Both the position numbers and the translations under genes were made by a program. Shown piece by piece: positions 27,845-63,789 of a stretch of 64,000 nucleotides of DNA. Position 1 is the stretch's first letter; the number at the start of each line of letters is the position of its first letter. The DNA is from Pomacea canaliculata (lineage: Eukaryota > Mollusca > Gastropoda > Architaenioglossa > Ampullariidae). The stretch spans positions 12,530,192 to 12,594,191 of the forward strand of contig NC_037603.1 of the NCBI RefSeq assembly GCF_003073045.1, written 5' to 3'. The notes under the pieces are model-generated. The model did not search any database, was not told where the DNA came from, and saw only the letters and a list, made by a program, of their open reading frames with translations.

Positions 27845-30268
27845 TTAGATTGGTATACACGGTACGCCTCGTTTCCTGCACATTGCAGGTGTGGTGGTGC
27901 CTGTGGTCTCTAAGGGGGCTACAGTGGTGCTTGTAGTCTCTGCAGGAGTTGGTATACACCCAGAACTAGCCCCGCCGCCTCTTTTTCTGCATATTACAGG
28001 AGATGTGGTGGAGACTGTGGACTGAATAGCGGAGGTGATCATACTGATTATAGTGCTCGTGGTCGTCGTAGGCTCTGGTGTAGTTGGACTCTGCGTGGTC
28101 GTGGGTGCTTCTGTTGTGGTTGTAGTAGTTGCTGGAGTACTCGATGCTGAAAAGTGTCAAACTTCAGTATTACAGATTTAACAATTGACGTTATGTTCAA
28201 TGTTCTGTTCACTAAAACATTGCCTCAACCCCTCGGCCCTCCTGGCACTAAACACTGTAATGTCGATAACCTGATAAATACTCTACGTCAGCGGTTCTCA
28301 ACCTGTGGGGCGCGACCCCCTGGGGGGTCGCGACGTGCCTACAAGGGGGTCGCGAAGGTGGTCATTTTTTTAAAAAGTTTCTTATACCGGTATTAGTGAA
28401 ATTAGCTTAGATTGTGTAACCGAGTGGTGAGGGCGATCATACTCCAAATCTCTTCTCCCTATTCAAGTACACTGTATCGACATGCAGTGACTTCTCACTT
28501 ACAAAACTCAAAACACAATCCCCCTCTAAACAATTAAGCCTACAATCTCCCTCCTCTCGCCTTTTGCCCTCTCTCCCCCAATCTCTCATCGCGGACTCCC
28601 CTCTCCCTCTCCAGCAATGAAAGTTCTTCTGCCATTTTCAACTTCGTATATGTGTGAGCAAGGATTTTCAGCATTGGCAGCACTGAAGTCTCAATACAGA
28701 AATCGTGTGGACGCAGAGGCTGAGCTGCAAATAGCAGTGGGTACGAACATCGCACACAGGTTCGCTTCTCTATGCAACAGCAAGCAGGCTCAACCTTCTC
28801 ATTAATCAAAGTGAGTGTCTAATAAAACTAATAAAATAATATTTATTAGCACCACAGAATTTGCTTTAGTAAAATTTCATTAACAGTTAGACTTCTTGCA
28901 GATACGAACTTTGTTCTTCCGTTGTTGATTTCCTCGACGCGACGTTGGAGGTTAGCTAAGGCTCCCCCCCCCCCTCTTCCACCGACGTAGCTGGCTAAGG
29001 GGGGTCGCGGAGGTACCGGTGTTCGTCAGGGGGGTCGTCACAAGTAAAAGGTTGAGAACCGCTGCTCTACGTGCTTAGTCCACCTTATTCACCTCATTTA
29101 TTGTGTTAAATAATCTAGTCCCTTAAAGTATATTTCTCTAAATACTCACGTAAACCATAGTTGAAGCATCGGCGGCATTGGTTATCGAGAGAACGCATGA
29201 GGTCGTTGTACTCTCGGCTGTAGAGGTTGTAGTAGTAGCTGTAGTGGTTGTAATCATTCCCGCTGAACGACCATCGACCCCTCGCCTGCTCGTTTTCGGG
29301 TTGTCCCTCGTAACCCCATGCATGACCTTTACTACGTTGTTGGCAAAGATGTCTGTAGTAGTCCTGTTATGTAAACATCCACACTACATTAGTACAGTAG
29401 TCTATTTTTAGTAACCCTACGTCATAGTCCCTTTCCCTAAACACACACACACATGTAGATAGGAGAAAGATGAAATTAGTGAGATGTTGATGTCTGTTAC
29501 ACCACAAACTTGTGTTAATGGACTGCTTGCAGAGGATTTATTTTTCAATTAAGTACTAGAACGAGGCTTGTGTGTACTGTGCTTTCGGCTTTGCCACGTT
29601 TCAGCTTAGCTTTTAAAACGAGGCTGGTTTGTACAAAGCTTCCGGTTACCTGAGTGTAATGTAAAGTCTGTTCTTATTTATGTAAACGTCTCCGCTATCG
29701 GTATTTCTAGTGTTTTTCAGTTTTCAAAATACCTAAACATATATATCAAAATAAAAATACTCACACATCTTTTATTGGTGGAAACTCTTCGCAGGTAAGA
29801 GTTCAACTGGTACAGACGATTGACTTCCTGTCTCAGGTAGTCGAGACTTGGCCGAGTGGTTTGGGGCACAGCCAGACCTTCAAACCAACAAAACAAAGAT
29901 TCCATTTCATCCCGTCTTCTGTTCGCTCAGGAAGATAACAGTAATCCAGTAAAATATCAACCTTACACTTTAGAAGTATGTGCTCTCACAAGTTTCTCTC
30001 TGAATACTGCTGCTGTTGCCACTACTGATGATGACAATAACTAATTATTATCGGCACACCCACTCAGTAGAGAGATAAATGTGTCAGGTAAATTTCTATA
30101 ATAGATCACTTTCATGTGGAAAAAATTGCGTTGCCACAAAAGAAGAATGTTGAGAAAATAATTTCTAATAGGTGACTACTGGAGCTTACCTTGAGTCAGG
30201 CCTCCAAACAGACCTGGAATAATTGCAGCTATGACCGCAAACACTATCGGACTCATTGTGATGCTCAT
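27845..30268 (-). CDS. Secreted coiled-coil/mucin-like protein, copy D
   Basis: Exons 30268-30190, 29877-29765, 29363-29150, 28146-27845, phases 1-0-1, encode 235 residues with no break. Residues 1-22 are a signal peptide (SPIVFAVIAAIIPGLF). Exon 2 (27-64) is a helix, PSLDYLRQEVNRLYQL, ending in Cys64. Exon 3 (65-135) keeps the Tyr pattern (YSYYYNLYSREY) and has three Cys, but reads ARGRW where its relatives have VKRQ. Exon 4 is a Thr/Pro-rich mucin-like tail without the long repeat array, carrying two copies of a Cys motif, CRKRGGGASSGCIP and CRKRGVPCIP, the last ending the protein. This copy shows what the C-terminus of copies B and C looked like before their frameshifts. The coding exons differ strongly from A-C while the 3' flank is nearly the same as in B. 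Confidence 0.8.
28289..29064 (+). mobile_element. Short hAT (Charlie/ZBED-like) element in intron 3 of copy D
   Basis: Inverted ends CAGCGGTTCTCAACCT and AGGTTGAGAACCGCTG, with the 8-bp target duplication CTCTACGT at 28281-28288 and 29065-29072. It is 776 bp, too short for a full transposase, and sits wholly inside the intron between exons 3 and 4 of copy D. Confidence 0.93.
28617..28805 (+). pseudogene. hAT transposase C-terminal remnant
   Basis: Sixty-two codons open at an ATG: LLPFSTSYMCEQGFSAL, then LKSQYRNRVDAE and LCNSKQAQPSH. This is the dimerisation end of ZBED5/FAM200-like hAT transposases; everything upstream of it is missing. Confidence 0.88.
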
Positions 30269-38090: not shown

Positions 38091-40024
38091 CTAGTGGACG
38101 TGGTAGTCAGCGACCATGGCGAGGTCTTCAGAGGACGAGTGAGGATGGTCAGCCACTTGTGTGTCAGTCGAGTATGGCTGCATGTTGAATGATGAGATGT
38201 CATCTGTCACCTCAACTGTGCTGCCTCTGTACCCCAGGTATTTTCCTGAAACAAAAGGTAGCAGTAACTGTAGCAATATGCCAACCCATTATTTGCGAGA
38301 AAAATAGCGAGGGCGTCGTCGAGGGTCTTAATATTCTCTGCATTACACTTCTACATTGACTTTTACTGTGGACACTTAACTCCCCTGTAGCACCTGGCAT
38401 GTGATCATCGTGTGCAAAGTATCTGCTGTAAGGGAGACACAAACATGTCACCAACAGCGACTACTCCACCTGGCCCTCATATAGGTATTTACCGCACCTG
38501 GAGTCACAGTCGGGAGGAGACGTGTTGTCCCCGTATCCTGCATGATGAAGAGACAAGGATGTCGGCATGACTTAGGGTCACCGGATAGTTCACACTGCAA
38601 GTCACAAGTGTCACATGGTTTAAAGGTGACAAGTGTCAGTAAGCATCACATGAATATATATATATTAGTGTTTCGAGTCACATATGATAAAGTAGCAAAT
38701 ATCTATATCTTCAACATGTGACAAGAGTGTGATTTATATCTGGAAGCTCTTTTGACAAAAGTAAATAAAATTTCATGGGATAGCCAGTCACGTGTCAGAT
38801 TTAGGAAGAAGTAGCTCAACAAGGGACATTACCAGATAAAATAGTTTGCACTGTATCAACTTAATTTATGCATTATTCTATTTTATAATAAAAGGTCCAC
38901 GTATTGTACTCTAACAGTCTGTATGACAGTCACTCACCAGGTGAACTTGTGATTCCTGGTTGACAGCCACGTACGTCAGTGTCTTCATGTTCATGAAGGT
39001 GGCCGCGTACTGACCATCCTCCTTCAGGGTGTAGTCTCTCTTCAGGAAACGCGCAGCTGCAAGAGCAGAAATGTGTATCATTGGCAGATGAATGTACACA
39101 CTCACACTCACACACACACAACAGACAACAGACAAACTAACACATCTACCTGACTACGTTAGCACGTGAGTGCACGACCAACGGTGCCGTGGACCCCACA
39201 TATTCTCACACTCATCTTTCTTATCATTGACACTTTCGTTCGCTGTGCGGTCTGAAGACGATGAAAGACGACTCGGACAATGCTTGAAAGTCGAGCTGAG
39301 CAGCAACAAGAGGAATGTGAGTAGTAATTCTTTGCATCTGTCTTCAACGTTGAGTCAGTTCAGTCATCAACATGAAAGCTTTGTCCTTGTTGTCCCTGTC
39401 ATCAACGTCATCTGTTTTCTGCTCCACGAATTCAGTTTCGCCCTGGGGAATATTTTGTGGGCAATTGTCATGATTGCAGTATTTCTATGGCCTTTCTTTA
39501 CAGCTTTTTATGATCATTGTATTATTTCAAGTGTCTGAAAGCTGAATGATATTTCTTGGAAAGTGAAAAAGACTTTATCTCAACGACCTCCAACATAAAG
39601 ACAGTCTGCAGTCTTTCCTTTCGCCTTTTCTACTCGTCGTCCTCTTCACATTGCTCATCATGAAACCTTGTTTTTGTAATACTACACTAGGACCAAAGAT
39701 GCAAGCCCAGGTGTGATACAGAGGTAGCTAGGAAACTGTTTACCTTTGTCTTATGTAAAGGTGAGGTAAGATGTATCGAGGACACTGCTTACCTGGGTCA
39801 TCTAGACTGCTGATGGACTCCATGGTCAGGATTAAGCCAGTTTCAGAGACAACCATAAACTCAATCTCACCCGGTTTTCTCAGTAAAACCTGTCGTAGCT
39901 TGTTTTTAACGGGCTGTGGCGCGTCATCACCGACGCGAGTTATCTCCGCCTCGTCACAGTTGTCTGTCAGTTGGTACGACTGTCTCAGCTGCAGGTGTCC
40001 ACAGATCAGAGGCCTGGGTTCCAT
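38091..40024 (-). CDS. Leaderless beta-trefoil-like (IL-1/FGF-like) protein, copy F
   Basis: Exons 40024-39793, 39056-38938, 38594-38498, 38245-38091; phases 1-0-1; 200 residues. There is no signal peptide or membrane segment. Alternating hydrophobic strands run through EFMVVSETGLILTMESI, QYAATFMNMKTLTYVAVN, CLFIMQDTG and TPGKYLGYRG (148-157), and the fold would close with VTDDISSFNMQP. The P-x-x-Y-L turn followed by a D..S-F-x-M strand resembles the last two strands of interleukin-1 family proteins; TYVAVN also recalls FGF. Cys pairs in exon 3 (CRHPC) are conserved in copy G. The role is inferred: a secreted signalling ligand released without a leader. An upstream exon could extend the N-terminus, since copy G is longer there. 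Confidence 0.75.
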
Positions 40025-40085
40025 CTTGTGTGCCACCCAACTAAGTGAACGAGCTGTTGGTAAGTCAAGTGACCGGCGAGTCGTC

Positions 40086-40093
40086 AGGTATTT
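40086..40093 (-). promoter_or_regulatory. TATA-like box upstream of copy F
   Basis: CATAAATA on the minus strand about 60 bp upstream of the ATG at 40024. It is weak evidence that exon 1 as drawn is the first exon. Confidence 0.35.
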
Positions 40094-40109
40094 ATGTCCT
40101 TCCCTCAAT

Positions 40110-42000
40110 CATCGACATCATCGAACAATTCGCTGATTGGCTCCTTAGGTTTAACCCCATTTTTTCTACACAGGGGAAGTATTTTGACCAAACAGTGTTT
40201 CCCACGGGGAGTAACCTAAATTGAAACTAATTCTTTTCCAATTCAATTCAATAAATTTCCTTCTTTCACTGTTTTCTCGTTTGTCTGGCGGTCTGTCTTT
40301 CTCTCTTAGCTGTTATCTCTCAGCAAACTGCTGAGCGCCGGCATTTTACAGTTTTCATTTAACAATAGCCTGTTAATTTGCTCTCATTTGTTGTACTCAG
40401 TTGCTATACTCATTTGCTCAGTGTACTCAGTGTATTCACTAAACTGCTGTACATACTTGCTACTCTCAGTTGTATTCACATCCTTCTCTATTTCCTTCTT
40501 ATTTCTGTGACCTAAGAGCATCACAACTTTTCCTCTCGGTACAATCAGAAACTTCCTGTGGGGAACCACACAGTACAGTTCGGTCAGTGTGTGTGTGTGT
40601 GTGTGTGTGTGGGGGGGGGATGATTTGCATGTTGACACAATTTGAAAATGGTGTACCAAACAGGGAAATCACCGACATTTTTTACCGGCTACTCGTACTT
40701 CTTTTCTGTTTCCTGCTTCGAACAGACCCACGACTAAACCGACTTAGCAGCGGATGTTGGTGAGTTTGATCACACCCTCGGCAGTCGTCGTAGTCGTCCT
40801 TGCCGGAAGTATCAAAGCTGAGTTACTATTAATACATAAATATATATAATTATTAATCTCAAAGTAAATAGAGAGCAGTCAACACACAATGGTGTGATAA
40901 TATCTGCGTTACAAAAATCATGCCACATACGTGTTTTAAATCATATGTAAATTTTCAAACTATATTTGTTTTGGTTTTTTTCTTACAAAGTTTTATTTAT
41001 TTTTTCCTCTGAAATGTATGTTTACTGTTGGTTGTGCTTAAGAAAACTGTTAAATGAAAGAGGTGATGTAAGAGGTGATGTAAGGTTCATCAAGTGGAGA
41101 GCTGTGTCGACATCAATGGTGGGTGAGGGTGAGGTGTGGAAATGTGCAGAGAAAGTTGGGGTCTTGTGTGGACAAATGATTTCTCACTCAAAATGTTTAT
41201 GGTTGTTCTCTTCATGTCAGCAGACCTACAATAATCTTCTGAGATTGGAGCTGAAGTGATGACACCTGTATTCTGTGTACAACCACCTCACCTGAGTGAA
41301 CACACAGACTGAACACAATACTGACACGCGCTCTTTCACTCAACAAAACACAAACATCTCCATGAGCATCCCACTACTGTATTCAAAGATGCCAAAAGAT
41401 ATCTTGTTGGCCTAGCTTCTCTTTTCTGTTTTGTACCTTTGCTTATTTTTTATATTATTATCTTTTAAGGCCATACGTTGATATATCCTAGATGCAACAC
41501 ACATCACTATCCACTTTATCAAAGGGACTAATATAAGTGTATAACATCAGGCGGTATTTACAACTCACAAATACAAAAATACATGGAACTTCTATACATA
41601 TATATCTATATACAATTCCCACTATCTCTCTTTAATTCGATTCATTCTGTCTATCTCTCTCTCGGTCTCTCTCTCTCTGTTTGTCTGTCTCTCTGTCTGT
41701 CTCTCTCTCTCTCTTCCCTATCACAAGCTTGGCCCAAGCTTGGCTGAATCTTGGGTCCTAATAACCTTTCACTAGTTATTCCTCAACAAGTCACTTCCAC
41801 ATCTTCTACTACTGGCCGTCTGTTGCTAATGGCACCGCCATACTCCCACCTGTGTGCCAGGCTGGGCAGGTGTTTACATCCGGGGCACTCGACGATGCAT
41901 TCGTTCGCCCTGCTCTGCACATTGGGTCTCTACGACATTTATCACATCTGTGAAGCTGGAAGTCTATGTTTCCTACTTATCTCTATTCTCATCAGTTGTT
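40110..42000. other. Intergenic DNA between copies F and G
   Basis: No convincing gene. It contains a GT array at about 40585-40618, a block (40480-40770) similar to 35260-35480, and a CT/TCTG array at about 41640-41715. Confidence 0.5.
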
Positions 42001-42006
42001 TTCAGC

Positions 42007-44387
42007 TTAACCGTGTGAAACCACACAGGTGGCTGTTGAGAGAACTCTCGTGGTGTTCCTGGGCGGGGAGATGGGTGGACATGAATTTCCGCCATTGGTC
42101 TCGTGGATGTGATGGTCGCCGGCCATGTCGAAATCTTCAGAAGACGACTCAGGCTCAACCCTCGAGGTAGTTGTCTTCAGTCTCCGAACCCTGACAATGT
42201 GATGGTCAGCCACTGGTGTGTCACTGGATGCGGGCAACATGTTGAATGAGGAGATGTCATCTGTCACCTCAACCACGCTGCCTCTGTACCCGAGGTACTT
42301 TCCTACAATCAAACAGTAATTATTGTTATTCATTGCTAAAAACAAATCCAGAGCAAAAGTTGTCAGTGAATGTTCACATGCTCTACCAGTGAGCACCGGT
42401 GAGCGTGCTTGCACCTTGTGTCTGAGTCTTAATCCATGAAAACTACAGGTAACTGTATGATGAATGTGCTTTGAGTCTCCTTTTTATTTCATTTTCATTG
42501 CTGAATGTTACATAACGTGGACATAACGTCGATAACGAATTTTCCTGACTACTCTACACACAGCTTACCTGGAGTCTCAGTAGGGAGGAGCTGTATTCTT
42601 CCCGGTGTCTGCAAAATGAAGAGACAAGGATGTCTGCATGACGGAGGGTCACCGGCTAGTTCACACTGCAAGTCACAAGTGTCACATGGTTCAAAGGCGA
42701 GAAGTATCAGTAAGCATCACACACACATTTATATATATAATGGAAAGGTATTAGTGTTTTGAGTCACACGTGATAAAGTAACAAATATCTATATCTTCAA
42801 CAAGTGACAAGAATGTCGTTTATATCTGGAAGCTCTTTTGACAAAAGTAAATAAAATTTCATGGGATAGCCAGTCACGTGTCAGATTTAGGAAGAAGTAG
42901 CTCGACAAGGGACATTACCAGATAAAATAGTTTACACTGTCTCAACTTAATTTATGCATCATTCAATTTTATAATAAAATGTCCACGTGTTGTACTCTAA
43001 CAATCTGTATGACAGTCACTCACCAAGTAAACGTGTGATTCCGTGTTGACAGCCACGTACGTCAGTGTCTTCATGTTCATGAACGTAGCAGCGTACTGAC
43101 CATCCTCCAGGATGTAGTCCCTCTTCAGGAAACTCGCAGCTGCAAGAGCAGAAATGTGTATCATTGGCAGGTGAATGAACGCACACACACACACACAGAC
43201 ATCAGACAACCTAACACATCTACCTAACTACGCCAACAGGTCAGTGCACGACCAACGGTGTCGTGGACCCGACGTAGGCACGCACTGATTTTTTTTTTTT
43301 TTTTTTTTTTTTTGTTCATTGAGATTTTCTGGGCTTGTCTGATAATGATGAAAGACAGCCCAGATACTGTATCGTCTGCGGAGTGAATACTTGTCTTTCT
43401 CACCTGTCTTCAAATTTGAGTCAGTTCAGTCATCACCACAAAGCTTTTTGTCATTGTTCTCAATAATGTCCCTGTCATCAACATCATCTGTTTTCTAATC
43501 CACGAACTCATGTTTGCCTGGTAGAATGCTTTGTGGACCATTGTCATGATGTGCAGTATTTATATAACCTCTCATTCCACTGTTTTTTTCCCTTGGTAAG
43601 AAGTATTTCAAGTGTCTGTAGCAATCCAAATGCTTTTTCTTGGAAGTCAAAAGAGACTTCATCTCAACGACCTCACCCCCAATTTTTTTTCCCTGTTTTC
43701 TACTCGTTAATTACCTTAACTAAATTGTCGAGTCCTTTAATTAACTTTTTCTGTTCTCGGTTTAATTTATTTAGTAATTTGCACTCTACGTTTTATTTTC
43801 TAATATTAAATCTTTCTTGTAGCACAATACTAGGACAGGTGGGGTGGGAGGTATCGAGGAGACTGTTTACCTGTGTCCTGTAGACTGCTGATGGACTTCA
43901 TCGTGAGGAAGCCAGTTACACTGACAACCATAAATTCCTTCTCAAACGGCTTTGATTTTCTGAGTAAAACCAGTCGTGGCCTGTTTGTAACGGGAAGCGG
44001 CGCGTCATCAGCCCCGTTGCCACAACTTTCAGCACCGACGCGAGTTATCTTCGCTTCTTCACGGTTGTCTGTCAGTTGGTAGGGCGGTCTCAGGTGGAGG
44101 TGTCCACCGACCAGAAGTTCTGGTTTCATGTCGTGGTGCTCCTCGTCCTCCTCCCAAGATGTCGTCTTTTTGTGGAAACAGCTGAGAGCAGTGAGGCAGG
44201 AGGAGAGGTTGTGAGTCTTCTTTCCTTTCTTGACGACGTCAGCGACGTCAACGTGAACGTCAACGTCAGACGAGCCGCCGGGTCCACGTGAGGCTGACAT
44301 AGTCGAGTTTGGTGTTCGAGGCGATGAGAGTTTGCAATGTGCCATCAACTTTAAAGTTGAGCTTAGACCAAGTGGTGTATCTTCCAT
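42007..44387 (-). CDS. Leaderless beta-trefoil-like (IL-1/FGF-like) protein, copy G
   Basis: Exons 44387-43871, 43139-43024, 42665-42569, 42302-42007; phases 1-0-1; 341 residues. The body (from about residue 96) aligns with copy F throughout: HLHLRPPYQLTDN, EFMVVSVTGFLTMKSI, QYAATFMNMKTLTYVAVN, CRHPCLFILQ, TPGKYLGYRG (242-247 region) and VTDDISSFNMLP. It has an extra N-terminal 95 residues with no signal peptide, containing VKKGKK, which could be a pro-domain of the kind leaderless cytokines carry, and an extra C-terminal stretch with VRVRRLKTTT and a longer end. Introns 1-2 and flanks are near copies of those of F, so the pair arose by tandem duplication. The ATG at 44387 is the first in frame; a later Met (MKPELL) aligns with the start of F. 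Confidence 0.75.
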
Positions 44388-44420
44388 GATTATTCTGATG
44401 AAGAACTTGGGCGATGTCTG

Positions 44421-44427
44421 ATTTATA
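44421..44427 (-). promoter_or_regulatory. TATA-like box upstream of copy G
   Basis: TATAAAT on the minus strand, only about 35 bp before the ATG at 44387, so the leader would be very short. It may instead favour a downstream Met. Confidence 0.35.
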
Positions 44428-44831
44428 TGGAAGGCATCATTGTCTATAATTAGTTCTAGAAAACCGAGATTTGACGTTTCAGAGTAGACAATTCAGTTAA
44501 ACATTTCCACTGTGACTAAACACTGATAGGCATTCTTTGTTTAATCCTCTTCTACAGTTTCCCACACTGAGTAAACTGATGTCAAAGTACGTAAATCGGT
44601 AAATCACTTCGAAAGACATTTTTAGTTTGAATGGTGAGTTCTGTGTTCGCACTTCAACTCCCTCACACGAGATGACGGATGTCCAATGTTTTCAGATGCT
44701 CACCACTTTGCGGTGACACTTTACAGTCAAGGGAAAGAACTGCAGGCAAATCGTTATCTCTTTGAAAAACCCTTAGTCCCTCAAAATAGACATGATAGCA
44801 AAGCAAAGTTCTTTCTCCTTCTATCTCTTTG

Positions 44832-44940
44832 TCTGTCTGTCTGTCCGTCCGTCCGTCCGTCCGTCCGTCCGTCCGTCCGTCCGTCCGTCCGTCCGTCCGT
44901 CCGTCCGTCCGTCCGTCCGTCCGTTGGTCCGTCCGTCTGT
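44832..44940. repeat. (GTCC)n microsatellite
   Basis: About 25 GTCC tetranucleotides, flanked by GTCT. The Arg/Pro/Ser/Val ORFs over it are repeat artefacts. Confidence 0.97.
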
Positions 44941-45039
44941 CTAGCTTGATCTCGCTGTCGTTTTATGGTGTTATGTCTAAGCAAACTGCAGAGCCAAGTA
45001 ATATAAGCTTCAATGCTAAATATCCATTTGAGTTCATGG

Positions 45040-45690
45040 GGATTTCAATGTTTTGCACCAGACCCTCTTCTTTGCACCAGACCCTCCCTTTCAAATAGTT
45101 TGGGGAAAATTATTTCTAAGTTTTACACCAGACCCTCCCTCTTCCGCGACTTTGCGAAAAACCAGGTACCCAAGCTACTTCAATGCCAAACATCGATTTC
45201 AGTTCATAGACAAAACCTGCCGATGAAAGATACACAACTGGGTGAGCATGTCATATCTAGAAACCTTCTTTCTTGACACGGTCCCTTTCGAGCACCTTTC
45301 GGGACGCCTGCTACATAGCGCCGACCTTGTGCCACGCCTCCCATTGCACCAGGCCCTCCGGGCAGCTGACCCTCCCTAAGCACCTGACCCTCCCCCTGCA
45401 CCAGGCCCTCCGGGCACCTGACCCTCCCTAGGAACCTGACCCTCCCTAAGCACCTGACCCTCCCCGTGCACCAGGCCCTCCGCGCACCTGACCCTCTTCT
45501 TTGCACCAGACCCTCCCATTCAAATGGTTTGGGGAAAATTATTTCAAAGTTTTACACCAGACCCTCCGTCTTCCGCGACTTGCCGAACACCAGGTAACCC
45601 TAAGCTTTAAATGCAAAAGTGATTTAGCTTGAGCTAGGATAAGAATTTTTGCACCAGACCCTCACCTCTCTCGTTAAAAAAAAAAGGGGG
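45040..45690 (-). repeat. rDNA spacer-like repeats, left block
   Basis: Many copies of a motif read on the minus strand as GGAGGGTCTGGTGC or GGAGGGTCAGGTGC, with one degenerate copy of the promoter-like segment at about 45226-45345 (compare 47610-47750). The same motifs flank the rRNA fusion on its other side, which points to ribosomal intergenic-spacer subrepeats. Confidence 0.7.
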
Positions 45691-45699
45691 AAAGTGCTA

Positions 45700-45955
45700 C
45701 GGCCTGAGCGGCTAATGGCCTGGTACTGTCGGCTTTGAGGCTCCACTGAAGGACTAGAACTTCATGGGCTAAGATGACATCGGACAAGCAACTCACGCGT
45801 TGCACGGGGGACCGACGAACCAATGCAAGTCACCACTGGATACACAGACTTTATTGCCTCCTATTCTTCGCAGAGTCTTTATTTGATGCTACCTTGTAGA
45901 GGCTTTTGTAACTGTACTGGGGGGTACAATGCGTGCCTATACGATCGTTTGTATG
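45700..45955 (-). other. Region downstream of the rRNA fusion, unidentified
   Basis: Follows the 28S piece on the minus strand and precedes the spacer repeats. It does not match rRNA that I can recall. It could be 3' external spacer or unrelated DNA. Confidence 0.3.
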
Positions 45956-45956
45956 C

Positions 45957-46230
45957 TATACCTCTTGATTCACACTCCGAAATTCAAAAGGATCGATAGG
46001 CCACGCTTTCACGGTCTGTATTCGTACTGAAAATCAAAATCAAGCGAGCTTTTGCCCTTTTGCTCTACGCGAGGTTTCCGTCCTCGCTGAGCTCGCCTTA
46101 GGACACCTGCGTTACCTTTTGACAGATGTACCGCCCCAGGCGAGGTGCCGGCGCGAGCTTAATTCCAGAAGCGATGGGCTTGCGCCTCGCTCTCCGCTCG
46201 ACTGAATAAGTAAAGAAACGATAAACACCT
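45957..46230 (-). pseudogene. 28S rRNA fragment (3' region)
   Basis: On the minus strand this matches conserved 28S: GGGGCGGTACATCTGTC, then AACGCAGGTGTCCTAAGGCG, GAGCAAAAGGGCAAAAGCTC and AGCGTGGCCTATCGATCC. It starts straight after the 18S piece and decays near 45957. Small changes (AAAAGG where CAAACG-type sequence is usual, CTCAGCGAGG) show it is not a functional gene. Confidence 0.88.
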
Positions 46231-47157
46231 GCGGATCGCTAGCTGGCATCGTTTATAATCAGAACTACGACAGTATCTGATCGTCTTCGAGCCTCTGACT
46301 TTCATTCTTGACCAATGGCAAATGCTTTCGCAGTTGTTCGTCTTGCAATGATCCAAGAAGTTCGCCTCTAACACCGCAATACGGATGCCCACGTCTGTCC
46401 CTCTTAATCATTGCCTCGTGTTGCCAAAACCAGCAAAATAGAAGCGAGGTGCTATTCCATTATTCCATGCACCATTATTCAGGCTGACGAGCCTGCTTTG
46501 AACACTCTAATTTCTTCAAAGTATGCCTGAGATCCAACTACGAGCTTTTTAATCGCAACAACTTTATTATACGCTATTGGAGATGGAATTACCACGGCTG
46601 CTGGCATCAGACTTGCCCTCCAATTGATCCTCGTTAACGGGTTTAAAGTGTACTCATTCCAATTACGGAGCCTCAAAAGAGTTCCGTATTGTTATTTTTC
46701 GTCACTACCTCCCCGAGCTGGGAAGTTGCGCGCCTTGGATGTGGTAGCCGTTTCTCATGCTCCCTCTCCGGAATCGAACCCTTATTCCCGTAGTCAACAT
46801 GGTAGACATGTCACGTACCATTGACATTTGATAAGGCAGACAGGAAAAAGATACTTCGCCGGCTCGAGGCCATGCGATCGGCACAAAGTTATCCAGTCAC
46901 CAAAGGGGACGGGGCCGAAACCCCGACTGGTTTTGAACTAATAAAAGCGCTCTTTCCTGGCTTTGACACCCGGTCGGAGCTGGTTTGCATGTATTAGCTC
47001 TAGAATTGCCACAGTTATCCAAGTAGAAATGGATCATCTAAGGAACCTCGACTGATTTAATGAGCCAATTGCGGGTTCACAATACGAGGGTGTGAAGTTA
47101 GACATACATGGCTTAATCTTTGAGACAAGCATATGACTACTGGCAGGATCAACCAGA
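46231..47157 (-). pseudogene. 18S rRNA fragment (5' half)
   Basis: Begins on the minus strand with CTGGTTGATCCTGCCAGTAG and runs in order through ATGCTTGTCTCAAAGATTAA, TTCTAGAGCTAATACATGC, the 530-loop region and GATGCCAGCTAGCGATCCGC, where it switches to 28S. Several internal segments are deleted, and the universally conserved GCCGCGGTAATTCCAGC reads GCCGTGGTAATTCCATC, so it cannot be a working SSU gene. The 3' half of 18S, the 5.8S and most of the 28S are absent. Confidence 0.93.
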
Positions 47158-47159
47158 AT

Positions 47160-47610
47160 GCTCAATGGCTTCACGGAACCGATTCCCACGAACCAGTCGC
47201 CGCGAGGCCGCGGGTTCTGCGTCCGTGCGTGCATTTCGTTCGGTAGTAGCGCCGAAGGACGCTTGCTTTTCGCTCTTGCAACCGAATCATCGGTTCAACA
47301 TTTCCACGTGCTGAGCTTCACCCGATCGACACGGGCGAGCTCTTTCACTCGAGACACAGTCAAGCGTTATTCGATGCGCCGACGCGGCTGGCCGAGAGGA
47401 GCAGGAGGACCAACCCCTCTCTCTGCTCAACCAGCCCACGCCTGAGCCGTGGGAAACGCGACAACGACAGCCGCGAATCGCCACCGAGCCAACCCGTACC
47501 ACACCTTCTTCGGTCCGCGTAGAAACCGGCTCGCGGTAGGACGGGACGCAGACAACGATCACTTTCGACCGAGGGCGTCGCACGCCGAGCGAGCGCTCAT
47601 TTGCCGATCA
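47160..47610 (-). other. 5' external transcribed spacer-like sequence
   Basis: GC-rich DNA between the 18S 5' end and the promoter-like site, in the place an ETS would occupy. ORFs across it have no protein features. Confidence 0.55.
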
Positions 47611-47694
47611 AAAATACACAACTGGGTGAGCACTACATGGCTAATAGTAACCTTTCTCTATTGCCATGTTCACTTTCTCGCGCCTTTCGGCACA

Positions 47695-47750
47695 CCTGCT
47701 CCCCATATATATAGCGCCGACTTTTACCTTCCCTGCCTTGTGCCACGCCT
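47695..47750 (-). promoter_or_regulatory. RNA polymerase I promoter-like site
   Basis: Minus strand GGCGCTATATATATGGGGAGCA, a TATATA-GGGGA arrangement like many invertebrate pre-rRNA start sites, followed by the ETS-like stretch and 18S. Degenerate copies lie at about 45290-45335 and 48990-49050. Confidence 0.5.
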
Positions 47751-48545
47751 CCCCTAGCACCAGGCCCTCCGCACCAGGCCCTCCGCACCAGGCCCTCCGC
47801 ACCAGGCCCTCTGCACCAGGCCCTCCGCACCAGACCCTCCTGTTGGGTATACTTGAACGAAACGAGGTTCCCCTAAGCTTCTAGCATCAAATTGAAGTTA
47901 CTAATAGCTAGAAGGGTGTTTTCAAAGTGTTGCACCAGACCCTCCGCACCCGACCCTCCCTTTCAGTAAACTTGAAGAAAACGACGTACCCCTAAGCTTC
48001 GACTATCAAATAGAAGTTACTAGTGAGTGGAAGTGTGTTTTCAAAGTGTTACACCACCCCTTCCCCTCGAACAAACATTTCAAAGTTTGGCATCAGACCC
48101 TCCGCACCAGACCCTCCTGTTCAGCATACTTGAAGGAAACGAAGTACCACTATGCTTCTAGTACAAAATTGAAGTTACTAATGAGTGGAAGTGTGTTTTC
48201 AACCCTGAGCGCTCATCTGACCCTCCCTAAGCACCTGACCCTCCCAAGGCACCAGGCCCTCCGCGCACCTGACCCTCCCCCTGCACCAGGCCCTCCGGGC
48301 ACCTGACCCTCCCTAGGAACCTGACCCTGTCTAAGCACCTGACCCTCCCAAGTCACCAGGCCCTCCGCGCACCTGACCCTCCCCCTGCACCAGGCCCTCC
48401 GGGCACCTGACCCTCCCTAGGAACCTGACCCTGTCTAAGCACCTGACCCTCCCAAGTCACCAGGCCCTCCGCGCACCTGACCCTCCCACTGCACAAGGCC
48501 CTCCGGGCACCAGACCCTCTTCTTTGCACCAGACCCTCCCATTCA
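47750..48545 (-). repeat. rDNA spacer-like repeats, right block
   Basis: Dense GGAGGGTCTGGTGC-type motifs. At 48227-48500 a unit of about 104 bp is repeated at least twice almost exactly. The position upstream of the promoter-like site fits enhancer subrepeats of a ribosomal spacer. Confidence 0.75.
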
Positions 48546-48774
48546 AAAGGTTTGGGGAAAATTATTTCAAAGTTTGACACCAGACCCTCCCTCTTCCGCG
48601 ACTTGTCGAACACCAGGTAACCCTAAGCTTTAAATGCAAAAGTGGTTTAGCTTGAGCTAAATTTTTTTTTGCACCAGACCCTCCCCTCCTTCGTTAAAAG
48701 AAAAAAGTAAAAAAGAGTAAAAGTGCTACTGGTCCACCCGGCGTGAGCTACTATTGACCTGGTCCTGTGGCTTT

Positions 48775-48990
48775 ACCATTGCCACGGCTTTGACACCGCG
48801 GAGTGTATCGCAGCCTCCGGAGCATAAAGTTTCTGTACATATTCAGGAGGAGGCACAAAATCATCCATAGTCACCAAGAATGACGGGATCGATACCCGAT
48901 TGGTTCAGAACTAATAAAAGCGCTCTTTCCTGGCTGTGACACCGGGTCAGAATAGTTGGAAAGTTTAGCTCTACAATTGCCTCAGTTATG
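48775..48990 (-). pseudogene. Second 18S rRNA fragment, decayed
   Basis: Minus strand keeps AAAGAGCGCTTTTATTAGTTC and a mutated TTCTAGAGC-like stretch, homologous to about 46870-47010, followed at once by a degenerate promoter-like segment. It is more diverged than the first copy and shows a separate, older event. Confidence 0.75.
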
Positions 48991-49059
48991 CTCCCCATAC
49001 ATATAGTGCCAACCCTAACCTTCCCTGCCTTGTCCCTCGCCCCCTTCCCACCCGTTTAA

Positions 49060-50345
49060 CCGGATGGAGGCTATTTACCGGGTAAACGAGTTGGCTTCTT
49101 AACATCGATTTCACTACATGGGGAAATTATTATTTATGTTATATCTTTCTATTTTTTGGTCTTAGTTTTATTCTCATAGTTAGTCTTTAAAGTTTTGTCC
49201 CAGGCCCTCCCCTTCTTTTTCTATTTGTTTAATCTTTTATTATTATTTTGTTTTTGTTTCTCGTTGTTATTTTTTCTTTCTTTCAACTGTCCACTCCATC
49301 CTCCCCCGCGACACACACGGCGCGATGATATTAGTCTTCGCTGTAGTCGTGTAAGTTTAATGATGTTGCTTGTAATATCCTTACTTTCTCTTTCTCCCCT
49401 GTCACATCTCACAAAACTAATGTGTGATAAGTAATCTCCTCCATCACACATGGCCCAATGGTGGGGCATGACGGTCCCTCGTGATGCACTTGAATGAGAG
49501 AAGGTACAGAAGAACGAACAGTTCGCATACACTTGTTGCTATATACATGAGCGGGAATTTCAGTTGTGTGTCACGATGGCAGACGACTTCTGTGATTTCA
49601 AACATCTACATTCGGTGTGGGCGGTGCCCTGCACTTCCAGTCACACAGACTGAGTTGTGTTGACAAACATCGACCGCCTTCATCGGGTGCGTGGGTGTGT
49701 TTATGACAGCAAGTACCCGACTCGTGCAGGGGTCGACTCCTGACCTTTATCTTGGCCTAACACGCAAAAAAAAAAAAAAAAAAAAATCCATCACTTCTTA
49801 TATATAGAAAAGTATTATATTCTTGATTGCTTCTATCTCTCAGGTAGGGGAAAGACGGGAAAAGTCTCTGCAGTTTCTACAAAAATTCCATTTCTTGGTG
49901 AAGTGAAACTATGTGTGAAGCTAAAATGTCTGACAGCGCGTGTTTGCATGTGTGTGAGATTGTGTTATATTGAATTATTCCACATTCTATTTTAATTCAG
50001 TTTTTTCATGCTTCAGACGAGGAAGGACAAATACGAAACAAGAGGAAATTTCTTCCCTTCACAAACCGAAACTAAGCTAAAGGGCGGCGACTGGGTTGAA
50101 CGCACCGCGGAAATCCCCCGCCCTGCTCTCGGGGTCAGCTGCTCACAGGGTTCACTGTCGTCTGCTGAACAAGGGAAGTACGAGCACAGTTTGTGGCTAC
50201 ACGGGGCTGGATCACACCGCCTCGCCGTCCGTGCTGTCAGTCCTCGCCCCAGTCAGCGGTGGTGTTATCGTCACAGTCTACGACAACGACGACGTTGTGC
50301 ACACACAGAGGAGCAGTGGAAGTGCTTGACAACAACAACCACTGC
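49060..50345. other. Intergenic DNA, no gene seen
   Basis: T-rich tract at 49200-49290 and an A run at about 49767-49787. GC content rises from 50040 toward the first exon of the gene at 50350, consistent with a TATA-less promoter or 5' UTR, but no defined element is visible. Confidence 0.45.
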
Positions 50346-50349
50346 CATC

Positions 50350-53300
50350 ATGGCGGCACCACTCGGTGTCTACCGTAATGACGTAAGTAAGACACCTTCA
50401 CCTCTGTTTTGCTCTCGGCAAAAGCCGTTGTAGATGCGACAGTTAGTCCAGCACCACTCACATTGTTTGCTCTCTACAAGAGTCTAGTATCACACACATT
50501 GTTAAATGTTTACGTAGATATAAGCTAGAAAGATAAGTGAATAATTTCCTGAGCCAGCTCTTATGTTTCATTATTTACGAGACATGGACGAGAGCTTGTC
50601 ATTACTTGCGACTCACGTGGTTGCAGAGAACAGAGACGTTCACCCCACGCATCCATCGTGACCCCTCCGAGCTGCTGACCGGTCAGTCGGAGATCAGACT
50701 AACTCGACAGGACACAACCGCCAGCTTCTACGTCACAACTTTCAAAGGCGACAGGCATCGGCATTACGTCACTGGAGTGGACAGGTTAAGGTCAGTGAAC
50801 CCAACCTCGCATTACTCTCGTTCAAATGAAGTGGATGATGACTTCATAATCATCTCTGTCCTCATCCTGACAGTCTGACAGGCCGGATAATTTGATGAAA
50901 GTAACACCAGATGTTGTCATCATTACTGGTGTCCTTCTCTCATTCATTTAATTAATCAAGCGAGCAGCTACACCTGTACATATGACCTATTCTTATCTAT
51001 ACAATTTTGACATATTTTTTGTTCATGTTAGCTCATGTATATACTATATCTTACATCTGTAAAATGTCCATTTGCAGCTCCTACATCGAGTGCCAGCTGT
51101 GGCTGGTCAACAGTCACAAGGTCTTTCACTGGACACACGAAATGCTGACACACTGGCTGCGGGAACTGGAAGCCTTGGACCAGGAGACAGTCTTGGTTAG
51201 TTGCACGATTCTTGCTTATCTTTCAGAAGTTTCAAGTATACTACAATAAGTCTAACTAGAGGCCATGTTCTCGACTTAATTACCAGTTTTGTCTGTAGGC
51301 TGGTGCGCATGTCAAGTCTTTAAACGAGTCTACAGTTGCCGGTCTCTAGTGGCAAGTTGAGAATTGAGATCGGACTTAACAAAGTCTACCTACACTTGAG
51401 ATTCATGATGTAAGACTTATTTTAAGACCTCCCATGAAGCCATCGCTCGGTCTGTCTTGAAATTGTGTGAGTGTGTGTGCACGCGCGTTCGTGCTGTTTA
51501 TCCATTACTTGGCATGTTTTTGTTTGTGTGTAGACTCTGGTTGCGACTACATACAAGAACAATAAAAGGGTGGACACCTACCTTGAACTTGTCTTCATTC
51601 CGATAAATCTGGATGGAAGAGGGGTGGGTAGTCAAGGTAAGAGAAGTGTCTGTGTAGGAAGTCCGAGACCTCCACTACCCCACACTTAGTGATTATCACG
51701 AACCAGTCGTGTCCATAACAACAATCTCACAATTAATCTTCTTATCAGCGCTTTTAACAGAGGAAAGAAAAGCTCATAGCCTAGCTGGGCAAAGCATAGA
51801 AGGGTTGCTATAGTAACTACTGACTAGTTCAGATGCAAAAAGCGACAGTGTTTACAGGTGGCGCAAATATGAGAGAAGTGGCACGAGTTGATTGGTTAAC
51901 TGACTGTCTTCCTCCCCTCTTCTCTCTCTCCACCTTGCTTTATGTTCATGTTGTTTTCTGTTTCCATTTATCTGTGTGATTGACATTTTTGTTTTAATCA
52001 CAGAAAAAAAAGAGTAGTAACAGTAGTGGTGGAGGTGGTGGTAACAGTAGTGGGGTGGTGGTAACAGTAGAATAATTTTCTGATAAAGTGTTCTTGCTCA
52101 CAGTTATATATTTCGTCAACAGTGAAACACGGTTACGAGATTCTGATCCGTGCGATACAGAAGCAAACAGTGATCATCAAGGTGACCAACGTCAGCTTCC
52201 AAGGACCTGCTCAACAAATAAGGATTCGACACGGCGCCCAGTTCGGTCATTTTCTGCGAGCAGAATCCAACTGCCAGTCGTTGAGCATGACCTACGATGC
52301 CAGCGGCTGTGAACGTGAGTGTTTACTTGTTCTTTTTCTGTATGTGACATCTGTTTATAGGGCTGGCTGCCTTGCTGTGATGTAGTCTTAGTTGCTGATG
52401 GTGTCAAACACAATACCTCCTAGTAATTTTGTGTATATCAGATATTTGCGAAGAGATGTGATATCATAGCACAACCGTACTCTTTCATTCTTTATTTTTT
52501 TCTACGTTTCTGTTTTTCTCTCTACTTGTCTATCTGTCGGTGTCGGTGTTTATTTGACTTTGGGTTTTTTTTTTCTTTTTTTAATTTACTTGGGTTTTTT
52601 TTTTTGTGTCTCTTTTCTACTTCCGCTAAGTAGCACTGCAGCAGATAGCCTCATAACCCTTTCACTCGTATCATCGCACTTCCGTCTTGAGACTGTCTTC
52701 ACATGTACTTGACGAAGTTTGTCGATAACCCTCCATGCACCTTCATGTGGAATGATGTTAGGACAGAAGATATTTAGAGTTAACGATCTGTGACTGGCAT
52801 TCACCTCTGACCACACTTTTCGCCATATCAGTCATTATCTGTAGTGTTGGTACTTGTGGCCAAACCGTTTGATACAAAGATATGTCTGTGAGAAAACATC
52901 AAAGACCCAAGACTAACTGTGACTGACTGTTGTCTCAGATGTCTTCACGTGCTACAAGTTCGTGGGCGACGATGACACCCTGGACCGCGTGGTGTTCCTG
53001 TGCGTGCTCCAGGTGTACGGAAAGAGTCAGTTCATCGTGCCCAGCCCCACCTCCAGTCGCCTGACCACCTTACAGGTGCGTGTCGCCGTCGTGCACGAGC
53101 TTATCTCCTCCCACGGCGGGGTGGGTTGAGAAAAATGTTTGCTGCTTTTTTTTCATTTTTTAAAAGTTGTGAAAGTGGATCAGTGTCTAAAGCAGAATAT
53201 TAAGTCGGGCACCTCGTATCGGTAGGGGATGGAGGGGGAGAGAGAAGTACATAGAAACCTACGAGAAACAAACAAACAAACAAACAAACCTGGTTCCACT

Positions 53301-54587
53301 ATCATTAGTAATTATATTACAAACTATTCATCTTGACTGTTTCTCGTCACCAGAGCAGCGCCCTGGACACCAGCATTGACAGCCTGAAGGAGGCTGACCC
53401 GAGGTTTTTCGCCATGGTCACATCAGGACAGGGGGAGGAGACCTACTTCCTCAGGCCGCTCATGTTCCAAAGTAGGTCCCGCGCTTTACTCTTCCTGTCG
53501 TTATCTTTCCTTCTTCTTTATCTCCTTGCACACCCTTTTTCCTGTGACACCTGCTTACAGGAAGTTCTGTTATCTTTCTGTCTTTCCCTCCTATTTTTTC
53601 ACACCTCTTCACACCTCTCTCTCCAATTAACAAATAAATCACACACACACACACACACTAGTTCTAATACTTGCAACATTTATTATTCATATAAAGCACG
53701 ACTCAAACTGAAGTGGTCATAGCTTGTAAAAAGCAGTGTTGGATGCAGGGTTAGTCGAGTGTTGAAGCTCGTTAAGGAAGGAAGTTTATTACAGTCAATA
53801 TTGTCATTACCGTATCGCGCCCACGTGCGCACGCGCGTGTGTCTGCGTCAGAACATGGCGATCAGTGAAGTCGCCTCACGTCCTCCACAATTGAAGGAAA
53901 ATGCGTTTAGTGCAGTGATCACAGGAAGTTCATGGTTAATGCTCTGAACGCTTGACCTTTAGTGTGCCAACGGACATTTGGCAGAATGAACCCTTGCCGG
54001 TTTCGATGTGATCACAGTTGTCAGCTTGACTGCCTCCCTGTTTGTGGTCTTACACTGTGTCGACTGTGGAGACTGTATTGACTGTGGACACTGTGTTGAC
54101 TGTGGACACTGTGTTGATAGTGTTGACTGTGGACACTGTGTTGACTGTGGACACTGTGTTGATAGTGTTGACACTGTGTTGATAGTGTGGACACTGTGTT
54201 GACTGTGGACACTGTGTTGACTGTGGACACTGTTGACTGTGGACACTGTTGACTGTGGTCACTGTGTTGATAGTGTGGACACTGTGTTGACTGTGGACAC
54301 TGTTGACTGTGGTCACTGTGTTGATAGTGTGGACACTGTGTTGACTGTGGACACTGTGTTGACTGTGGACACTGTTGACTGTGGACACTGTTGACTGTGG
54401 TCACTGTGTTGATAGTGTGGAAACATTATTATTTCTGTCCTCAGATTACTTTATTTACTACGATGCGGTGGACGGATTGAAGCTGAAGCTCTGTGACCCT
54501 CCGCCCTACGACGAGAAATTTCTGGAAAATGTCAGCAACTTCACATTCGAGTTTCTGCAGGCGCCTGCCAGCGACCTGCAGCGATAG
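50350..54587 (+). CDS. Beta-trefoil-like (IL-1-like) protein H, eight exons
   Basis: Exons 50350-50382, 50627-50790, 51078-51195, 51534-51636, 52123-52314, 52939-53075, 53354-53471, 54445-54587; phases 0, 2, 0, 1, 1, 0, 1; 335 residues. All sites are GT/AG and every exon joins in frame. No signal peptide or membrane span. The last third (from about residue 204) is strand-rich: RVVFLCVLQVYGKSQFIV, LKEADPRFFAMVTSG, ETYFLRPLMFQNYFIYYD, GLKLKLC and NVSNFTFEFLQ. EADPRF, the Y-F-I turn and a closing F-T-F-E-F strand resemble interleukin-1 family proteins, and the last three intron phases equal those of copies F and G. Upstream (about 12-203) may be a further domain. Exon 2 could also end at 50784 (same phase). 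Role inferred: cytokine-like ligand. Confidence 0.82.
53640..53660. repeat. AC microsatellite in intron 7 of gene H
   Basis: About ten AC dinucleotides. Confidence 0.8.
54055..54420. repeat. Minisatellite in intron 7 of gene H
   Basis: Tandem GACTGTGGACACTGTGTT units of 12-18 bp with TGATAGTGT variants, stopping about 25 bp before the last exon. His/Ser/Gln-rich ORFs on the minus strand are artefacts. Confidence 0.93.
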
Positions 54588-60449: not shown

Positions 60450-60569
60450 TTGCCTACAGCACCCGGTGTTCCCAGGCGGTCACCCATCCAAGTACTAACC
60501 GGGCCCGACGTTGCTTAACTTCGGTGATCGGACGAGAACCGGTGTGTTCAACGTGGTATGGCCGTAGAC
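60450..60569 (-). rRNA. 5S rRNA, copy 1
   Basis: Full 120-nt gene on the minus strand: GTCTACGGCCATACCACG start, box A region AGTTAAGCAACGTCGGGCCC, intermediate and C boxes GGTTAGTACTTGGATGGGTG, and end GGGTGCTGTAGGC. Conserved positions are intact, so it is probably functional. It is transcribed toward the preceding U1 copy. Confidence 0.97.
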
Positions 60570-60579
60570 GAGGAGTGTG

Positions 60580-61410
60580 TGTTGTGTGTTTAGAAAGCTT
60601 TATTAAATAAGCATCCCCTACCTGACGGGGAGCGAGTATTTTAAGTGTGCCTACAAACTCACGCAAATTCCATTATCATTAACACCAGTTTTTTTAAGAA
60701 AGAACAAAAAGCAGAGCAACAGAAAAAAAACATTAAACGATACAATGCACAAACATGACCGTTGTGCCAAACCCAGTGTGCAAAATATGTCTCTCTCTCT
60801 CACACACACACACAAACTTCACCGTACTTAGTGGCAGGTAGTGTACTTGTTAGATGTTCTGTCATTTTTCTGCTGTGGTTTTCCCTCAGTGACAGTCCAC
60901 GTCTACCCGGTATGGGTCAAATCTTGGAAAACTTTTGAAGTAATTCGAAATTGTCTAATAGTTTATCTCCCTTTATTGCTTCAACTAGTCTAAGAAATAG
61001 ATAGTAAGGTAAATAATTCACTTCAAGTGATAAAGCTCCCTTTTTCTTTACCGACCACATTAGAGTTGATCGAGGAACAGCTGAGATGTTGTCAGTCGTA
61101 CTGCTGACCTCTGACCTGTACAGTGTCAGACAAAAAGCAAGAGAGGTAACCGCAATGCCAATGGCGCGAAGATTGCAGTTGTCTAAACTTTTGTCGGTTA
61201 CCTTAATTTGAGAATTTTAAACACACTCTTGTTGCTTAACATTTTAAATAAAATGACAAATTTTATTTTGTAATGCACTTTATTTACAATGGAAGAAATT
61301 TATATTATTTGAGTAAATAAATGGAAAAAAAGCTATAAATAAAATTCTCTGAGATCACCACAGAATAGCGCACAAATAGTTTGGGGTGCCCTTTCACACG
61401 AACAGTTCGA
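60580..61410. repeat. U1 upstream flank, unit 2
   Basis: From about 60790 it matches the flanks at 57553 and 63190. No gene seen. Confidence 0.8.
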
Positions 61411-61412
61411 TC

Positions 61413-61470
61413 ATACTTACCTGGCACGGGAGGCACCTTGATCATCAAGGAGGTCCTCCCAGGGCAGGGT
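61413..61470 (+). pseudogene. U1 snRNA 5' fragment
   Basis: Identical to the intact U1 at 63790 for about 55 nt (ATACTTACCTGGCACGGG through CTCCCAGGGC), then departs abruptly into unrelated GC-rich DNA. The 5' splice-site recognition sequence and stem-loop 1 are kept, the Sm site and later loops are lost. Confidence 0.9.
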
Positions 61471-61537
61471 TAATCTCCCCGCCGTCGTCCCCATAAGCCC
61501 CTGCGGCGTCTCGTCGTCTGTGGTACCACGTTCTTTT

Positions 61538-61581
61538 ATCTTAGCCAAAAGGCTAAACTGCAAAGTGTAGTATCTGTTCTT
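61538..61581 (+). pseudogene. U2 snRNA-like fragment
   Basis: Contains AAGTGTAGTATCTGTTCTT, the U2 branch-point-recognition region, preceded by a 16-bp palindrome TTAGCCAAAAGGCTAA that equals U2 stem I read on the other strand. The rest of U2 is not present. It lies about 70 bp after the U1 fragment, in the same orientation. Confidence 0.75.
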
Positions 61582-61599
61582 CGATTTTTCAGTCAGTTT

Positions 61600-61885
61600 T
61601 TGCGATATCGTGGCCTTTTAAGGCCGGATACACCTGAGTAGGTGGTAGAGAGTCGACTCCACGACAGCAAGAGGAGTCAGCCACACAGCAGCGCCCCAGT
61701 CAGGGCTCCTTGTCTCAGCACTGATATTTTCCAGACATGCCTTCCTTGTACTCACAGATCGTCACCGGCGGCAACGACACCACCTCAGCAACAAGACCAC
61801 CAGGCGGCTTCATCCCTCTCTCGGAGGTGGGAGTAGTTTCCTTCACCCTCGAAGATGGAGACTGAGATGAACTCCTAAAAAGATC
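61600..61885 (+). other. Unit 2 insert with a short open frame
   Basis: An ATG at 61738 opens 42 codons (SLYSQIVTGG, PPGGFIPLSEVGVVSF, stop at 61866). The codon look is protein-like but I recognise no family. It may be a captured exon or processed-RNA fragment. Confidence 0.3.
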
Positions 61886-61887
61886 AA

Positions 61888-62840
61888 CCGCTCCCCCATC
61901 CCATCCTCTTCCTTTCACTCCTCCCCTGAAGGTCGGCGGTGGCGATAACAACCAGTACTATTGCCTCGATGGTCATCACTGTACTGACCTGCATGTACTG
62001 CTGTCAGGAGTATGAGTTGAACTCCGGACACACGCACTACTATAGTGCGCAACACTGGTGAACCTTGACATTTGCGACAAGTAGTCTGTCGCGTTCGCTG
62101 GAGAGAAAGTTGTAAATGATATTTAGCGATAATAACCTTTTGAAAACAGCCGAGCCACTTGAATTTCCTGGAGTCGTTTGAAGGAAGTCGGCGTGCAGGC
62201 ATTCTTACTCACAACTCGAAGGCTACTGTAAGTACACGATTTCATGTGGCTTTCCTCTACAACCGTTATCGTGTATTAACACTTACTAAGCCTTACTCAA
62301 TATAGGTGTCTACTCATTTAAGAGGCCAGCAATCCGCTTACCTGAATTTACCTACGCTTACTGTCAGTAAAGTCTCCCAACAGTTTGACTAAATATAACA
62401 ATGGTTTGTAAGGCTACAGATATTAAAATCGCTCAAAAGTTAACAAAACATTCCTGTAAAAGCAGCAGCCATTATCGTCGCTCATCAACCTGTTTCATGT
62501 AACGTGTACCAAACAATACAAGACCTCTTGTCAAAACTGAAACCTCTAGTCTAGACTATGGTGTGAAGTCGCATAATACAGGTTGTTGCACGATGGTTGA
62601 GTGGCAAGCAAGTGATCGAACACAGAAACACAGTTGAGGATAGATACACTGACACAGTAAAGACGAAGACAAGCACGGCTTAAAAGCAGCAGATAAAAGG
62701 TTGCTAAAACAGGATGTGTACTAGAGAGAAAAGTTTCCGTGTCCTCAATCCGTAATATCGAAATATGCTTGGAATGAAGATGGAGGTTGCCCCGTGTTAA
62801 AGTACACTAAAGAGAATCTATTAAAAAAAAAAGAAAAAGT
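61888..62840. repeat. U1-5S spacer, copy 2
   Basis: Near-identical copy of 59475-60449. No gene seen. Confidence 0.9.
62823..62832 (-). terminator. Pol III terminator of 5S copy 2
   Basis: T run on the minus strand past the 5S 3' end. Confidence 0.65.
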
Positions 62841-62960: not shown

Positions 62961-62969
62961 CAAAGCCCC

Positions 62970-63788: not shown

Positions 63789-63789
63789 C

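Follow-up and report, generated by a model that had tools for sequence, protein, structure and literature searches.

A candidate family of leaderless, cytokine-like genes in the snail Pomacea canaliculata

We show that a 64,000-nucleotide stretch of the Pomacea canaliculata genome (hereafter the window; NC_037603.1, positions 12,530,192 to 12,594,191) carries three genuine protein-coding genes, F, G, and H, that are under purifying selection. F and G, a gene fragment, an intronless copy (R), a distant relative (J), and, as a doubtful branch, H might together make up a new family of snail proteins: cytokine-like, leaderless, and probably folded as beta-trefoils. We put this reading forward tentatively, at somewhat less than an even chance. 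Neither an interleukin-1 (IL-1) nor an FGF label is assigned here because neither the family matches nor the signatures tested for were found.

RESULTS

Gene models and their surroundings

All three genes could be modeled with AG/GT exon boundaries. F and G follow one another head to tail on the minus strand; H is on the plus strand. In each, the final three introns have phases 1-0-1. The loci, together with R and J, are as follows.

Gene F: 38091-40024, minus strand, 200-residue protein
F exon 1: 39793..40024, minus strand, start Met to the first domain strands, ends in phase 1 (paralogue identity and retrocopy join)
F exon 2: 38938..39056, minus strand, ends in phase 0 (model and retrocopy join)
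F exon 3: 38498..38594, minus strand, ends in phase 1 (model and retrocopy join)
F exon 4 with stop: 38091..38245, minus strand, encodes PGKYLGYRG and DISSFNM (model and retrocopy join)
Gene G: 42007-44300, minus strand, 312-residue protein
G exon 1: 43871..44300, minus strand, longer N-terminal part, ends in phase 1; the open frame extends 5' to 44492
G exon 2: 43024..43139, minus strand, ends in phase 0 (gene model)
G exon 3: 42569..42665, minus strand, ends in phase 1 (gene model)
G exon 4 with stop: 42007..42302, minus strand (gene model)
Gene H: 50350-54587, plus strand, 335-residue protein
H exon 1: 50350..50382, plus strand, MAAPLGVYRND, putative start with the frame open further 5' (second copy)
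H exon 2: 50627..50790, plus strand (model; identical splice sites in the second copy)
H exon 3: 51078..51195, plus strand (model and second copy)
H exon 4: 51534..51636, plus strand (model and second copy)
H exon 5: 52123..52314, plus strand, putative trefoil begins, ends in phase 1 (model and second copy)
H exon 6: 52939..53075, plus strand, ends in phase 0 (model and second copy)
H exon 7: 53354..53471, plus strand, ends in phase 1 (model and second copy)
H exon 8 with stop: 54445..54587, plus strand, encodes NYFIYY and NVSNFTF (model and second copy)
R, intronless copy of the F/G type: contig C12, 1459-2280 of extract L001, minus strand, 274-residue open frame
J: 114 kb left of the window, four exons, 318 residues, intron phases 1-0-1

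The initial annotation had placed genes at these positions, and the splice-site models, the paralogues, the retrocopy R, and a second copy of H bear this out. The models likewise show the end motifs that it described, as PGKYLGYRG and DISSFNM in both F and G and, in H, as NYFIYY and NVSNFTF, together with the 1-0-1 intron phases.

The window also holds other elements. Between G and H (45962-47159, minus strand), pieces of 18S and 28S ribosomal RNA (rRNA) lie amid CACCTGACCCTCC-type repeats. The 18S piece has 1,003 bp spanning model positions 1 to 1831, and is thus internally shortened, and the 28S piece has 182 bp; together they look like a displaced, rearranged rDNA fragment. Two 5S rRNA matches, 2,391 bp apart, occur at 60451-63953, with a U1 snRNA match past the second. 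Several related open frames lie at about 1-17100 and at 27845-28156 (minus strand); they combine a Tyr-rich module (YRYYYNMYKQKYDNL..QALSFFGL) with extended VVPSETTGAP-like Thr/Pro repeats. One of these frames, 755-1330 (minus strand), has a signal-peptide-like start, and a Pfam search of five of them gave one match, below the cut-off. A non-LTR retroelement at 23105-26191 (minus strand) has a 1,028-residue open frame with endonuclease, reverse transcriptase, and DUF6451.

Paralogues and purifying selection

F and G are 75% identical, with a dN/dS of 0.53 (bootstrap 0.34-0.81; comparison of the domain only, 0.53 with an interval up to 0.98). The ratio is lower in exon 2 (0.31) and over the last strands (0.15) than in exon 1 (0.77) and exon 3 (0.79). 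Intron 2 is 93% identical between the two genes, against 68% for intron 1 and 43% for intron 3, which suggests gene conversion between the tandem copies.

A genome search with F matched F, G, exon 1 of a copy at C14:16.10 Mb, R, and one chance-level row. At C14:16.10 Mb, exon 1 is present and the match to exon 2 breaks off part-way; no later exon was recognized in the 9.5-kb stretch around it. The N-terminal part of G exon 1 recurs both in this fragment and in R. The open frame of R reads through all three exon joins as modeled for F and G, which confirms their splicing. Over the domain, dN/dS is 0.33 (0.19-0.58) for R and G, and 0.55, with an interval up to 1.03, for R and F. With its open frame kept and its sequence constrained relative to G, R may be a working retrogene.

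The second, near-identical copy of H, at C14:17.80 Mb, retains all eight exons and their splice sites. It differs by indels in every one of the seven introns and by none in an exon (dN 0.014, dS 0.079, ratio 0.18). Ratios across the compared pairs thus range from 0.18 to 0.55. Pseudogenes or chance open frames as an account of F, G, and H are ruled out by this constraint, the retrocopy, and the conserved splice sites.

A conserved domain behind a variable N-terminal part

J came to light in a genome search with R, as a marginal match (E 2.3) to the left of the window; its exons were read by eye and then modeled. An alignment of 141 residues with R, interrupted by a single gap, shows 35% identity (E 3e-27), and exon-by-exon comparison of J with F, G, and R gives z of 13.6-18.1. 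The stretch conserved between J and R starts about ten residues ahead of the first strand and stops just past the last, which marks out a compact domain, about 130 residues long, preceded by a variable N-terminal part. Directly before the domain, F and G have the sequence DD/AP and R has ED/TP; no site of this type precedes the domain of J.

The initial annotation had described F, G, and H as lacking signal peptides. The most hydrophobic ten-residue stretch within the first 40 residues of the modeled proteins scores 0.25-1.35 in F, G, H, R, and J, compared with 2.15 in a signal-peptide-like gene from elsewhere in the window. The 5' ends are predicted ones, and we accordingly describe the five proteins as likely, rather than certainly, leaderless.

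The kinship of H is looser. Compared exon by exon, H scores z 2.25 (p 0.02) with F, 0.70 with G, and 1.16 (p 0.13) with the F/G/R average. Its score with J (z 3.36, p 0.001) is driven by exon 3 (z 4.4; other exons 1.8, -0.3, and 0.3), and on the F/G/R/J profile it reaches z 0.60. When exon profiles of F/G/R/J were run over the window and 120 kb to its right, only F and G appeared at E < 0.3 among the matches listed, and H was absent among them. H is thus not a close copy of F or G, and these scores only weakly suggest that it could be a more doubtful branch of the family. No relatives were confirmed in viral contigs.

Family searches

A Pfam search listed no match to PF00340 (IL-1) or PF00167 (FGF) for F, G, H, R, or J. 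In the controls, PF00340 placed six of seven typed IL-1-superfamily sequences above its cut-off (IL-33 matches IL33_bt instead) and matched one of three FGFs, below the cut-off. PF00167 finds an FGF exon elsewhere in the P. canaliculata genome (contig C1, E 5e-6), which, by reading of its frames, seemingly starts in phase 0. Across all Pfam models, F and R had no family, and G, H, and J had only chance-level matches to unrelated models (E 0.023-0.2). NCBIfam gave nothing beyond chance level for F and H. A PDB sequence search gave no match for F and chance matches only for H and for the F/G and F/G/R/J profiles.

Family signature patterns were also compared. The IL-1 signature occurs in 0/5 of F, G, H, R, and J and in 6/12 typed IL-1s, and the FGF signature in 0/5 and in 8/8 typed FGFs. 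In profile-profile alignments (hhalign), one of the checks proposed in the initial annotation, neither F/G nor H stood out when paired with IL-1 or FGF (P 0.12-0.21). PF00340 has no match in the snail's own genome; this carries little weight, as 14 control genomes also lack one. Human IL-1 beta has a single match in the snail genome (E 0.24), with an internal stop, which we take as chance; for this 401-base site, the reading frames were listed only.

Profile similarity to IL-1 and FGF

We built profiles locally from typed IL-1 and FGF sequences and scored controls alongside. Five of the twelve IL-1 members, each left out in turn, reach glocal z of 3.55 (IL-33) to 24.6, with IL-18 at 6.72. F, G, and H fall below the most divergent of these, at 1.65, 0.32, and 0.97 against IL-1; against FGF they score 0.88, 0.65, and 1.32. 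FGF2 (6.82) and FGF12 (3.51) score against IL-1 at the level of its most divergent member. In unanchored comparisons with controls, F/G against IL-1 has p 0.03 end-to-end and 0.66 locally, and H against FGF has p 0.012 locally. The local score of H is z 3.0-3.3 for FGF (p about 0.01) versus 0.1 for IL-1.

In an anchored test, alignments were pinned at intron sites, with assumed positions for the vertebrate genes. Against IL-1, z is 2.41 (p 0.016) for F, 0.04 for G, 1.48 for R, 2.33 (p 0.015) for the F/G/R average, and 2.85 (p 0.005) for H. Against FGF, the same sequences score 0.65, 0.94, 1.16, 1.28, and 0.34, respectively. Without anchors, H in this comparison scores 1.54 for IL-1 and 2.12 for FGF. 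Reversed F, R, H, and F/G/R average score under the real sequences against IL-1, whereas reversed G and J exceed the real ones. Overlapping pieces of three unrelated proteins served as controls; of these 68 pieces, one reached 2.3 and none 2.85 against IL-1, and against FGF four and one did so. Three of six FGFs score z 2.6-6.3 against IL-1 in the same test, and such scores therefore do not single out IL-1.

J scores 0.65 for IL-1 and -0.20 for FGF. Once J is added, the preference of F/G/R for IL-1 vanishes (F/G/R/J: 2.03 for IL-1, 2.00 for FGF). In the reverse direction, the F/G/R/J profile gives mean anchored z of 1.14 over 12 IL-1 and 1.16 over 8 FGF sequences, and 37 control pieces give a mean of 0.11 (SD 0.87, maximum 1.97). 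Overall, the snail sequences score near chance and well below true members of either family. Members within one family are not independent, and several choices were made after the data had been seen; read in this light, the profile evidence mildly supports a trefoil and does not decide between IL-1 and FGF.

Fold and intron phases

The AlphaFold models are unreliable, with pLDDT 30.6 and pTM 0.18 for F with G, and pLDDT 32.9 and pTM 0.23 for R with F and G. By our reading of the DSSP assignments, strands fall at 9/12 and 10/12 of the expected trefoil positions in these two low-confidence models; the apparent strand-richness derives from those assignments and that reading only. F, G, and H gave no signal of an internal threefold repeat, and among controls 3/8 typed FGFs and 0/12 IL-1s fell below p 0.05. 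The domain is probably a 12-strand beta-trefoil.

According to PMC4880838, the introns of IL-1 beta genes are of phases II,0,I,I,0 and all twelve strands lie within the last three exons, so that the pair (I,0) falls inside the trefoil. The first two of the snail phases match this pair, and an extra phase 1 follows. Vertebrate FGF genes share the phase pattern (1,0); the phases thus support a trefoil-ligand layout rather than IL-1 alone.

DISCUSSION

Like members of the IL-1 superfamily (IL-1 beta, IL-1Ra, IL-36, IL-18, and IL-33), the snail proteins as modeled have no signal peptide, a trait typical of that superfamily though not universal in it, and consist of a variable N-terminal part followed by a C-terminal domain of about 130 residues. 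In both, that domain is split by introns of phases 1 and 0 (PMC4880838). The snail proteins also resemble IL-1 beta in their PG-x-[YF]-L turn and in a last strand of the form D-x-x-x-F-x-M. Unlike that superfamily, the snail genes have an extra phase-1 intron ahead of the last strands, no Pfam IL1 match, and no IL-1 signature. Their profile scores lie under those of the left-out true members tested, and their fold is putative. To FGFs, some members of which are also leaderless, they are comparable in domain length and equally, if weakly, similar by profile. They differ in lacking a PF00167 match and the FGF signature (0/5) and in being less basic (domain pI 4.8-8.4 in F, G, H, R, and J, against 7.9-10.1 in FGFs).

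On our reading, the snail proteins would be made in the cytosol as precursors without a signal peptide and would be released by unconventional secretion or through cell damage. The N-terminal part might be cleaved off, in F and G possibly at DD/AP before the domain. Once outside, the protein could signal alarm or growth by way of a receptor on the cell surface. The proteins would in this way work like IL-1 or leaderless FGFs, and we file them in neither family.

The initial annotation had read F, G, and H as resembling IL-1, with FGF as an alternative. What stands of the first reading is that the genes are real and apparently leaderless, that they share a conserved domain, and that their intron phases would suit IL-1 beta; for IL-1 in particular we find no support. 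A stricter form of it holds that one bilaterian cytokine, signaling through an Ig-TIR receptor, was ancestral to both vertebrate IL-1 and the snail genes. The shared (1,0) phases, leaderless models, and variable N-terminal part agree with this, as do the IL-1R-like genes reported for protostomes (PMC9020223) and the anchored preference of H and F for IL-1, where one of the 68 control pieces reached 2.3 and none 2.85. However, G (0.04) and J (0.65) score low against IL-1, the F/G/R/J family is even, and H without anchors leans toward FGF (2.12 versus 1.54; locally, 3.0 versus 0.1). Real IL-1 members score higher (glocal z 3.5-24.6, against 0.3-1.7 for F, G, and H), half of the FGFs tested score as high on IL-1, the anchors are assumed vertebrate intron sites, and PF00340 and the signature were each found in 0/5. 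Two papers, moreover, report no invertebrate IL-1 (PMC9020223, PMC9382457). We therefore regard an IL-1 lineage as quite improbable and the IL-1 label as premature.

Very divergent FGF-type ligands that no longer carry the FGF signature or the basic heparin site are, in our estimate, a shade less probable still. The local score of H against FGF, the equal scores of F/G/R/J for the two families, and the (1,0) phases, which are also the vertebrate FGF pattern, would fit such ligands. Yet PF00167, which finds an FGF exon in this same genome (one that apparently starts in phase 0), matches none of the snail genes, the signature present in every typed FGF is missing, and the domains are less basic. 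Anchored, H scores a mere 0.34 against FGF, and control pieces reach 2.3 and 2.85 more often against FGF than against IL-1. Of the FGF alternative, then, a similarity about equal to that of IL-1 survives for F/G/R/J. The structure and profile evidence is weak throughout, and two strand-rich, low-confidence models would suit many folds. The domain could accordingly be a gastropod-specific all-beta domain of another fold, intracellular or structural and without a cytokine role, its trefoil look arising by chance. This is unlikely, although distinctly less so than either named family: IL-1 and FGF sequences average about one control SD above the controls on the family profile, and the length of the domain, its intron phases, and the motifs of its last strands are in line with trefoils. 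We thus tentatively retain the reading of a new family in the snail, whose leaderless and cytokine-like proteins are probably beta-trefoils.

In literature searches, judged by titles and the beginnings of abstracts, we recognized no invertebrate IL-1 and no gastropod trefoil cytokine. According to two papers (PMC9020223, PMC9382457), invertebrates have no IL-1; one of them (PMC9020223) adds that IL-1 receptors are older than their ligands and reports IL-1R-like genes in protostomes without ligands. Even if the genes described here are not IL-1, gene models and paralogues are in hand for a family that is under constraint and has no name in Pfam. A leaderless trefoil ligand family in the snail, if real, would offer a candidate for the ligand missing from invertebrates. 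If it were truly of the IL-1 type, then the ligand, like its Ig-TIR receptor, would be older than the vertebrates and would be represented by a small cluster in a protostome.
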